The notes under the pieces were generated by a model. The model saw only the letters and a list, made by a program, of their open reading frames with translations. It was not told the DNA's origin and ran no database searches. Below, piece after piece: positions 19,309 to 23,235 of a DNA stretch of 42,655 nt. How positions within the stretch are numbered: position 1 is the stretch's first letter; every line of letters starts with the position of its first letter. A program made the translations under genes and the position numbers. The DNA is taken from positions 1-42,655 of the IMG/VR virus record IMGVR_UViG_3300032431_000017, one strand, 5' to 3'. Source of the DNA: a virus.

Positions 19309-19554
19309 ATGGGCAAGCACATGACACTAGAAGAAGCAGTGCGCGAGTGCGCAACCGGGCAGCAGCGTCGTCCGATGCTCGGGATGCTGCAATCGAACTA
19401 CAACGACTCCCAGCCACCCGCTGTTATAAACTTCCTTGAAAAGAGGGGCTACATCATCAACTACGTAAAGTGTGGCACGTGCTTGTATGGTTGCTACCAC
19501 CTTGACGCGGTCAAGGTGGTAGCAGATGCCCCCGCCGAGGAGTCCGGCCGCTAA
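19309..19554 (+). CDS. small hypothetical protein (81 aa)
   Basis: Unrecognised. It contains CGTCLYGC near residues 55-62, possibly a metal or redox site, after a helical N-terminal part (LEEAVRECATGQQ). The start is supported by the upstream promoter-like box and CA-rich leader. The third GTCCGGCC...TTTTT element overlaps its last codons and the following gap. Confidence 0.75.
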   Translation: MGKHMTLEEAVRECATGQQRRPMLGMLQSNYNDSQPPAVINFLEKRGYIINYVKCGTCLYGCYHLDAVKVVADAPAEESGR

Positions 19555-21346: not shown

Positions 21347-21376
21347 AACCCGTTCCCCAAAAAGGAGCGGGTTTTT
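21347..21376 (+). terminator. intrinsic terminator of the small-gene unit
   Basis: AACCCGTTCC / GGAGCGGGTT stem (one wobble), 7-nt A-rich loop, then T5, 6 nt after the preceding stop. Confidence 0.85.
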
Positions 21377-21396
21377 TGTGCCGGCAAAGCTTGGGG

Positions 21397-21425
21397 CCGG
21401 ACTAAAATAAAAGTCTGGAATTTTT
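21397..21425 (+). terminator. second, weaker terminator-like hairpin
   Basis: CCGGACT / AGTCTGG stem with an A-rich loop, then AATTTTT. Together with the first terminator it isolates the downstream promoter from read-through. Confidence 0.5.
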
Positions 21426-21456
21426 ATGGGCACGGGCTTGGATACCAAAAAATGGT

Positions 21457-21464
21457 TATATTTG
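21457..21464 (+). promoter_or_regulatory. promoter (-7 box) of the structured RNA / replication leader
   Basis: TATATTTG, a perfect TAnnTTTG, with TTG at 21438-21440 as a weak -33 candidate at short spacing. No other promoter is seen before the replication genes. Confidence 0.7.
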
Positions 21465-21470
21465 CGGATA

Positions 21471-21576
21471 TAGAAAATGAGCCTTTGCGGTGTGGTAGCC
21501 TCAAAATCTCATTTTAAACCTGACCCTCATTTGTCTGGTTGCCCGTTCAGATCTACCACCTGAACGGGCTTTTTTT
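21471..21576 (+). ncRNA. structured RNA with three hairpins and a kissing-loop; leader or sRNA
   Basis: From the predicted transcription start to a terminator this ~106-nt RNA folds as three hairpins: H1 AAAATGAG (21474-21481) with CTCATTTT (21508-21515); H2 AACCTGAC (21517-21524) with GTCTGGTT (21533-21540, one mismatch); H3, the terminator. The H1 loop holds GTGGTAG (21492-21498), perfectly complementary to CTACCAC (21553-21559) in the H3 loop. It lies upstream of the replication genes, which lack another visible promoter, so it is either a separate sRNA or an attenuating leader. A 28-codon frame from ATG 21477 ends at TGA 21561-21563 in the terminator stem, so a leader peptide is possible. 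Confidence 0.6.
21541..21576 (+). terminator. strong intrinsic terminator ending the structured RNA
   Basis: Perfect 10-bp stem GCCCGTTCAG / CTGAACGGGC, 9-nt loop ATCTACCAC, then T7. The replication initiator gene starts 32 nt later. Confidence 0.92.
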
Positions 21577-21607: not shown

Positions 21608-22465
21608 ATGCCAAACATGACAATAATCCGCCCAAAATCAAACTTTTCAGTCATTAGCAACATGATTGCCCGAGACAAGCGGGTAAGCATGGCCACGCTG
21701 GGACTATATTACAAAGTCATGTGCCTCCCGGATGACTGGGACTTTAGCGTGGCTGGGATTCAATGCTGCCTGCCAAATGGCAAGGATGCGATCTACTCAG
21801 CACTTCGCGAGCTTGAGCAACTTGGGTATTGTGTTAGGGAGCAACTCGCCTACGGGGGCAGGTTCCTTGGGGTCAATTACGTTTTTCTCAATGAACCGCA
21901 TCCGGAAAAACCGCATCCGGAAAAACCGCATCCGGAAAAACCGCATCCGGAAAAACCGCCACAATTAAATAAGTATATAAGTAAAGAACCATTTAAACAA
22001 ACAATTAAAGAGAGAGGTGGAAAAAAAAATTCCGCGCTCGCTAATGAAAAAATTGAAGTTGTTCAGGGGGAGACCCCCAACCCCCCAAAGGTTTTAAAAG
22101 AAAAAAAGGAAGGCCCCCCGGTTGCGGCGGCCCCCCCGACCATTCAAGAGGCAACGGCCGAAATGACCGTCCTTGGTCAGCCAAATGAGGCGGGCAAGTT
22201 TTGGGCATACTACCAAGCCAAGGGCTGGGCCGGGATTATTGACTGGAAGGCCGCTGCATCATGCTGGGTGCTCAGAATGAGCCAGTACACCACCACGGCA
22301 AACAATCCCGAATCAACCTTGGCCCGGGGCGTAACAGGCCGCCCATACAGCACCGACTTCACGCCCAAGGAAAAGCCGGTGAGCGAATTGCAGGCCCAAG
22401 CAAGGATTGAGCACGCTCAAAGAATGGAAGCGAAGGCAGCGAAGGCAAAACTTTCGGCCTTATGA
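21608..22465 (+). CDS. replication initiator with iterons inside its gene (285 aa)
   Basis: The N-terminal ~100 residues read as a winged helix of phage replication proteins: LGLYYKVMCLPDDWDFS, then GKDAIYSALRELEQLGY and a GRFLGVNYVF wing. A linker of four HPEKP repeats (residues ~97-117) is followed by a charged, low-complexity stretch and a C-terminal helical part around FWAYYQAKGWAGI. It overlaps the helicase-loader gene by 4 nt. This O/P-like pair would recognise the origin and load host DnaB helicase. The HPEKP repeats are encoded by 15-bp iterons. Confidence 0.85.
   Translation: MPNMTIIRPKSNFSVISNMIARDKRVSMATLGLYYKVMCLPDDWDFSVAGIQCCLPNGKDAIYSALRELEQLGYCVREQLAYGGRFLGVNYVFLNEPHPEKPHPEKPHPEKPHPEKPPQLNKYISKEPFKQTIKERGGKKNSALANEKIEVVQGETPNPPKVLKEKKEGPPVAAAPPTIQEATAEMTVLGQPNEAGKFWAYYQAKGWAGIIDWKAAASCWVLRMSQYTTTANNPESTLARGVTGRPYSTDFTPKEKPVSELQAQARIEHAQRMEAKAAKAKLSAL
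21896..21955. repeat. four 15-bp iterons, candidate replication origin
   Basis: Four perfect head-to-tail copies of ccgcatccggaaaaa (21896, 21911, 21926, 21941), plus a partial ccgc. Each contains the palindrome TCCGGA. They lie inside the initiator gene just before an AT-rich stretch, the layout of lambdoid origins. Confidence 0.8.
21961..22035. other. AT-rich stretch next to the iterons (candidate unwinding element)
   Basis: Strongly A/T-biased in an otherwise G/C-balanced gene, with runs such as TTAAATAAGTATATAAG and a run of nine A. It is directly adjacent to the iterons, as expected for a DNA unwinding element. Confidence 0.6.
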
Positions 22466-23235
22466 CATTGGATCAAGCAACAACCGAGTTTAACTCGGCC
22501 GCTGACATTGTATTTGGCGGCCAGTTTGCCAATAACCTTGAATCCAGTGGGGTGCTGACCCAATTGGTTGGCTACTTTTCGGGCAACGACACGGCCCTTG
22601 ACAAGTCAAAGGGGATTGTTTTGGTAGGGGCAAGGGGGACGGGCAAGACTACCCTGCTGACCCTGTTTCAATACCTTGTCAGGGGGAGCCGCGATTTTGC
22701 TTTTGGCTCCCAGAGCTTGGACGATGTCGAGTCAGCGTACAGAACAACCGGCCTAATGCCTTGGGAGGCCCGCCATAAGGTTCAATCTTGTATGTGGGAC
22801 GATATAGGGATTGAGAAGCAAAGTTCACGCTACGGGCAAAAAAAGCAGGTTGGTGAGGATGTTATCATGAAAACCTATCAATGGTGGTGTAATCTTGGCA
22901 TAAGAAGCCATTTTACGACAAACATTGCCCCGGCGGATTTTAATTTAATCTATGATGATCGGGCCGCTGACAGGCTGTTGCAAATGTCCAACATCATCCC
23001 CCTGCCAAGTATTGACTTTCGGGACATTACGGGCGTTAGGCCCGATTTTGATTCCCTTGGGTACTCCGGCCCCGGGTTTTTCAAGCAAGCCCCAGGGGAG
23101 GCGGAATTTAGGGAAACGCAAAGGGCCGGGTGGATTGAGCAATCCGAAAAAGAAAATCTGGCCGGCCGGCAAACCCGATCAGACCAATTCAATGCCATGT
23201 GGGCCGACCACATAAATGCAATAAAAAACCGTTAA
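22462..23235 (+). CDS. DnaC-like AAA+ helicase loader (257 aa)
   Basis: AAA+ ATPase that would deliver the host replicative helicase to the origin. Walker A GARGTGKTT (residues 56-64) and Walker B MWDDIG (111-116) are clear, followed by a sensor-like TTNIAP near 155 and an arginine in DDRAADRL near 165. The N-terminal ~50 residues may bind helicase or the initiator. The ATGA overlap with the initiator gene shows coupling. No phage helicase, primase or polymerase gene is seen, so replication depends on the host replisome. Confidence 0.88.
   Translation: MTLDQATTEFNSAADIVFGGQFANNLESSGVLTQLVGYFSGNDTALDKSKGIVLVGARGTGKTTLLTLFQYLVRGSRDFAFGSQSLDDVESAYRTTGLMPWEARHKVQSCMWDDIGIEKQSSRYGQKKQVGEDVIMKTYQWWCNLGIRSHFTTNIAPADFNLIYDDRAADRLLQMSNIIPLPSIDFRDITGVRPDFDSLGYSGPGFFKQAPGEAEFRETQRAGWIEQSEKENLAGRQTRSDQFNAMWADHINAIKNR

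Follow-up and report, generated by a model that had tools for sequence, protein, structure and literature searches.

A family of phage leader RNAs with exchangeable kissing loops upstream of replication-initiation genes

Results

Main Finding and Layout of the RNA

A short RNA located just before the DNA-replication genes of a bacterial virus belongs to a widespread phage RNA family without an Rfam match, in which an upstream element pairs with the loop of an intrinsic terminator, and in which many related viruses keep the pairing while swapping its sequence, as if each virus needed its own private on/off password for replication. The window analyzed was the whole 42,655-nt stretch of IMG/VR virus record IMGVR_UViG_3300032431_000017, and the RNA, on the plus strand like the other parts of the locus, was placed at 21471–21576. 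The observation made in the first-pass annotation, of a promoter box, two hairpins and a terminator with a 7-bp complementarity between the first loop and the terminator loop, was confirmed, with each element lying where it had been put.

The predicted promoter (21438–21464) consisted of a -33-like TTGGATA at 21438–21444 and a Bacteroidota -7 box TATATTTG at 21457–21464. The same TTGGATA...TTATATTTG layout was found in L255 (L numbers designate the sequences retrieved in this study). The predicted transcript comprised hairpin 1 (21474–21515), with the stem AAAATGAG at 21474–21481 and CTCATTTT at 21508–21515 plus a short inner stem, and kissing element 1, GTGGTAG, at 21492–21498; hairpin 2 (21517–21540; arms 21517–21524 and 21533–21540), a spacer hairpin that is usually present as a small hairpin in the family but is poorly conserved; and an intrinsic terminator (21541–21576) with a 10-bp stem, GCCCGTTCAG at 21541–21550 and CTGAACGGGC at 21560–21569, the loop ATCTACCAC holding kissing element 2, CTACCAC, at 21553–21559, and a run of seven T at 21570–21576. 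The 5′ end was inferred from the promoter box and was not mapped. The RNA folded to -39.3 kcal/mol (z -5.5), and none of 200 shuffled sequences folded as well.

Upstream of the unit, a good intrinsic terminator (21347–21378; stem 21347–21373 followed by a T run) that insulates it, and a second, weaker terminator-like hairpin (21397–21423; stem 21397–21418), were found. The loop of the former had no upstream complement (longest match 3 nt). A separate promoter between the terminator and the initiator gene had been named in advance as an observation that would make the RNA irrelevant to replication; no TAnnTTTG box was found between the terminator and the ATG at 21608. The gene behind the terminator (21608–22465) encodes a replication initiation protein (HTH, PHROG 4707/270; no Pfam match), and is followed by a DnaC-like AAA helicase loader (22462–23235), which had weak AAA matches in the Pfam search. 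Four 15-bp direct repeats AACCGCATCCGGAAA at 21894–21953, inside the initiator gene, are putative origin iterons. A 28-codon open frame over the RNA (21477–21563) is not conserved and is probably not a gene.

GTGGTAG, on either strand, occurred four times in the window, in the two loops of the RNA and in the two arms of a perfect 15-bp palindrome, TGCTACCACCTTGAC-GCG-GTCAAGGTGGTAGCA, at 19492–19524 inside an ORF at 19309–19554. The arms of the palindrome match each RNA loop over 8–9 nt; it is a possible trans target, decoy or operator, and was not seen in the other loci checked. A resemblance of GTGGTAG to the tRNA D-loop was discarded because the loop sequence varies between relatives.

From One Locus to a Family

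No close relatives were found using the initiator protein or the DNA of the locus, and the record had only distant terminase relatives, the best named one being Flavobacterium phage 1/32. However, L058, a contig retrieved only for its terminase, held the same layout, and pattern searches subsequently yielded 6 and then at least 120 stretches. In total, 88 loci, including the window and L058, passed a fold test in which both 7-mers lie in hairpin loops. In 64 of 85 loci a TAnnTT[TC]G box was located within 70 nt upstream of loop 1, against 4.8 expected, and in most the T run was followed by an ATG within 6–25 nt, leaving little room for another promoter. The downstream genes included several non-homologous replication proteins, namely Lin1244_N, BT4734/PriCT-1 primase, DUF6291, HTH_36 and a DUF1376-like protein below the Pfam cut-off. 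In several phages (L107, L119, L131, L137, and L139), HNH/GIY-YIG-like homing nuclease genes, named from their translations, sat directly behind the terminator, a possible insertion hot spot. A GC-rich contig (L085: 7186–7278, minus strand) had the RNA layout in front of a Rha/ANT antirepressor gene instead of a replication initiator, so the RNA may also serve other early operons and reach beyond Bacteroidota.

Neither the window nor 12 relatives matched a family other than tRNA when searched against Rfam 15 at gathering score, although whether this release holds a guanidine-IV model was not checked separately, and a search at an E-value threshold gave only matches below gathering scores. Hits in about nine contigs of one roe-deer gut Clostridia MAG (RGIG4231; L206, L209, L210, L213, L215, L217, and L221–L223) were a repeated 70-nt GTGGTAGCCC...GGGCTACCAC element with long complementary arms and a T run, which looks like a repeated mobile or terminator element and is not this RNA. 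Among 395 Bacteroidota genomes, there was one true member of the GTGGTAG type. Named phages with related initiators but no such RNA directly upstream on inspection were BK649P1, a Porphyromonas phage, EF62phi, phi46:1, Panino and several Vibrio phages. Literature searches, which covered open-licence papers only, found no description of such a class.

Sampling Through the Downstream Genes

Because pattern searches fix the loop sequence, relatives were retrieved again through three downstream proteins, blind to the RNA. The same RNA appeared upstream of non-homologous initiators (Lin1244_N, DUF6291, and BT4734-type primase) but with different loop pairs: GTGGTAG, GTAGGAG, GTGAGAG, GTGGAAG, and GTCGGAG with their exact complements in the terminator loop, and quite different pairs in the primase group, such as ACTTCGACA/TGTCGAAGT. 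In primase-type phages (L344, L305, L311, and L337, about 170 nt upstream of the primase start) the 5′ partner seems to lie unpaired at the very start of the transcript and to pair over 9–10 nt with a 26-nt terminator loop, a variant architecture without hairpin 1.

Of 151 distinct upstream regions, 117 had a terminator, while 34, mostly of distant primases, had none by the criteria used. In 114 of the 117, at least 7 nt of the loop were perfectly complementary to an upstream element, in 23 different words, although a few of the 23 are one type with a longer match. Only 3 of 99 control terminators reached 7 nt, one of them the window's own. Pairing within a locus was 7 nt or more in 79 of 81 Lin1244/DUF6291 loci, where pairing of one locus's loop with another type's 5′ region had a mode of 4 nt. 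Cognate duplexes had energies of -8.9 to -11.7 kcal/mol, and most non-cognate ones were much weaker. The terminator arms had no upstream partner beyond chance, their complementarity being equal to that of shuffled sequences, so there is no classical antiterminator stem and the loop is the only contact.

The absence of covariation of the loop pair in homologs had been specified beforehand as grounds for rejecting the RNA; when examined, the pair did covary. In an alignment of 37 sequences (A2), the kissing helix was paired in 100% of cells, with 34 cells changed on both sides and none on one side, and covariation was 0.320, against 0.114 when shuffled (0 of 500) and at most 0.12 when slid. This alignment varies at only two kissing positions, so the wider variety rests on the scripted comparison of upstream regions; an earlier MAFFT alignment (A1) misplaced the loop and was not used for statistics. 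The stems also covaried, although only 72% of cells were paired in hairpin 2. A covariance model built from A2, which contains no window sequence, found the window RNA full length at 21460–21573 (25.6 bits, E 0.0026). An apparent depletion of the loop 7-mer elsewhere in the genomes (32 against 59 expected) vanished when other loop types served as control.

Polymorphism and Exchange of the Kissing Pair

On trees of the initiator proteins, the kissing type was nearly shuffled, changing 17 times in 42 rows and 18 times in 36, with a minimum of 4 each and 23.1 and 20.8 changes, respectively, for shuffled labels. Among initiator genes at least 94% identical, 30 of 66 pairs differed in type; RNA flanks were then 0.72–0.84 identical, against about 0.96 when types agreed, so much of the switching is exchange of the whole unit.

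Cultured phages show this directly. Elemovirus isolates on Flavobacterium BAL314, from a Baltic mesocosm, carried three types: GTGGAGG (elemoE/F), TGAGAGC (elemoA_15-9B and elemoD_13-5B; the other elemoA–D records whose hits look the same were not read individually) or GTGAGATG (elemoA_11-9C, with three records of similar match length). Between elemoA_15-9B and 11-9C the flanks were 98% (upstream) and 99% (downstream) identical while the RNA was replaced. The virulent phage tooticki6-1 (PMC7077304) and Olleya phage Harreka_1 carried further types. In a few relatives (elemo phages, tooticki, and Harreka) a small ORF lay between the RNA and the initiator. A prophage of Spirosoma sordidisoli carried the window's type in front of an initiator, a DnaB-like helicase and a clamp, gene names being read from the translations. 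Integrases were found in 4 of 45 records (3 over the family cut-off) and not in the window; with one prophage carrier and few integrases, these data do not settle whether carriers are temperate.

Discussion

A Proposed Kissing-Loop Attenuator of Replication

We interpret the RNA as the leader of the replication operon, working as a kissing-loop transcription attenuator with self/non-self specificity, a reading that we consider somewhat more likely than not. The sequences themselves demonstrate that a promoter-leader-terminator unit is followed directly by a replication initiation gene, that the terminator loop is almost always complementary to an element near the 5′ end, that the pair is kept by compensatory change, and that whole alleles of the unit are exchanged between close relatives; the trans step, the direction and the biological use are inferences, as no expression, termination or trans-activity data exist here. 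In this view, as polymerase makes the terminator, the 5′ element would seize the terminator loop before the 3′ arm is complete, hindering the terminator as in the guanidine-IV riboswitch (PMC11611296; PMC7736828), so that polymerase reads into the initiator gene and across the putative origin inside it. When RNA of the same type has accumulated from other genome copies, or from a resident phage of the same type, it would occupy the loops in trans, the cis pairing would fail, the terminator would form and replication would be shut off. This would give gene-dosage control and exclusion of same-type superinfecting genomes, and would favor new loop types; rapid exchange of largely orthogonal types is what one expects if same-type RNA from other genomes competes in trans and restores termination. 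The logic is that of P4 CI RNA, a leader RNA carrying a sequence and its complement that terminates its own replication operon (PMC4825925), and of plasmid incompatibility RNAs. That the RNA is a real conserved family is almost certain and that it is a cis attenuator of the replication operon is likely, whereas sequence-specific action in trans is only rather more probable than not, and the direction (cis pairing ON, trans pairing OFF), inferred by analogy with the guanidine-IV riboswitch, is tentative.

There are arguments against this reading. Loop diversity could also come from neutral compensatory change plus ordinary recombination, without any trans role; in the terminated RNA both loops can pair with each other, which would weaken it as a trans regulator; and kissing could instead stabilize the terminator. 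The small ORF between the RNA and the initiator in a few relatives, and the upstream regions without a terminator, also count against it. Given the scarcity of integrases, classical lysogenic immunity does not seem to be the general purpose, and superinfection or copy control in virulent phages must be assumed. The IMG/VR contigs are mostly of unknown completeness.

The interpretation given in the first-pass annotation was partly supported. A cis-acting attenuator in front of the replication genes, a real kissing pair and dependence on read-through were supported, and no described class was found in the open-licence papers searched, while its alternatives of leader-peptide attenuation and of put-like antitermination, in the strict sense, were not. 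Working from a single sequence, it could not see that the pair is polymorphic and exchanged between near-identical phages, which is the most telling fact and points to specificity in trans.

A bolder reading, not excluded but held tentatively, is that of a previously undescribed, widespread class of phage RNA in which one self-complementary sense transcript is both sensor and target. It would count phage genomes of its own kissing type and switch replication on or off by opening or closing its own terminator, so that virulent phages sharing a host are sorted into RNA-defined incompatibility groups that diversify by cassette exchange. If the trans reading is right, this is an RNA-only self/non-self system for virulent phages, common in Bacteroidota phage contigs, that decides who may replicate in a co-infected cell, evolves new specificities by paired base changes and allele exchange, and would extend plasmid-style RNA incompatibility to lytic viruses. 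Even if it acts only in cis, it would be a new family of kissing-loop attenuators with modular, orthogonal pairs.

ALTERNATIVES

Among the other explanations, a cis-only attenuator is the most probable and remains possible, though we consider it less likely than the main reading. Here, the kissing pair would set a constant read-through fraction, or answer a phage or host protein, and the loops would vary only because any complementary pair will do. The pairing is kept by compensation, the unit is always in cis in front of the initiator, and guanidine-IV riboswitches show that such a pair can work in cis. Nevertheless, neutral drift does not readily explain near-random switching of types among initiators over 94% identical, nor exchange of whole cassettes between isolates on one host, and no one-sided intermediates were seen in the aligned set.

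A second, improbable alternative is that kissing stabilizes the terminator (OFF) and intermolecular pairing opens it (ON), as a positive, quorum-like switch releasing replication when several same-type genomes are present. The same structural facts apply, a kissing helix can stack on the terminator stem, and the guanidine-IV authors note that binding might be expected to stabilize that stem (PMC7736828). However, the closest measured precedent is held to be an ON switch upon loop pairing (PMC7736828; PMC11611296), and positive feedback would not favor loop diversity, since rare types would lose.

Equally improbable is a primer or origin-activation RNA, in which the read-through transcript crosses the iteron origin inside the initiator gene and the RNA controls priming or origin transcription rather than protein supply (ColE1 RNA I/II-like). 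Iteron-like repeats were located 300–430 nt into the initiator gene in the window, the Spirosoma prophage, 31 of 37 DUF6291 and 20 of 43 Lin1244 genes, but in only 1 of 36 BT4734-type genes, yet those phages carry the RNA; moreover, an intrinsic terminator hundreds of bases before the repeats is not a primer signal.

That the GTGGTAG half-sites are DNA operator sites of a repressor and the RNA structure is incidental is very unlikely, despite the same 7-mer in the palindrome at 19492–19524, because the spacing between the two elements varies (38–65 nt among pattern-found members), the sites sit in hairpin loops whose stems covary, and the sequence itself varies with complementarity kept. Leader-peptide attenuation is close to refuted, because, although the 28-codon frame exists and ends in the terminator stem, ATG frames of 15 or more codons were present in only 8 of 85 pattern-found and 17 of 110 gene-found loci, while the loop pair is kept.

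Comparison With Known Systems

The RNA works like a kissing-loop attenuator and plausibly like a P4-type immunity RNA, but it is a member of none of the families tested. In the guanidine-IV riboswitch (GGAM-1/mepA motif), as here, an upstream hairpin loop kisses the loop of the terminator hairpin, and that pairing is proposed to lead to read-through of an intrinsic terminator (PMC7736828; PMC11611296). By contrast, that riboswitch is a ligand-binding RNA with highly conserved nucleotides, mostly in front of guanidine exporters, whereas here the loop sequence is exchangeable, pairing involves 7 or more Watson-Crick pairs, and the genes are phage replication initiators.

Phage P4 CI RNA (seqA/seqB/seqC), considered together with P1 C4 RNA, is likewise a leader RNA of a phage replication operon that holds a sequence and its own complement and controls the operon by transcription termination, but it is a processed RNA that pairs with seqA and seqC up- and downstream of it (PMC4825925). 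Here the target is the apical loop of an intrinsic terminator, and most carriers lack an integrase. Homology to P4 CI or P1 C4 immunity RNA was not supported by any Rfam match at gathering score; termination in trans of the operon of a superinfecting genome was not assayed, and only allele exchange and loop diversity point to it.

In plasmid countertranscript RNAs (ColE1 RNA I/II, pT181 and pMV158 types), kissing loops of about 7 nt decide specificity, small compensated loop changes make new incompatibility types, and replication is the target. Those systems use an antisense RNA from the opposite strand, whereas here one sense RNA carries both partners; an antisense transcript or promoter was not specifically sought.

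Finally, the HK022 put antitermination RNAs are phage leader RNAs that promote read-through of terminators. Binding of the RNA by polymerase and read-through of later terminators were not measured for the present RNA, but the exchangeable loop argues against put-like action. The put RNAs act on polymerase and confer resistance to later terminators, whereas the loop pair here is exchangeable rather than a fixed polymerase-binding sequence, and the RNA contacts the loop of its own terminator.
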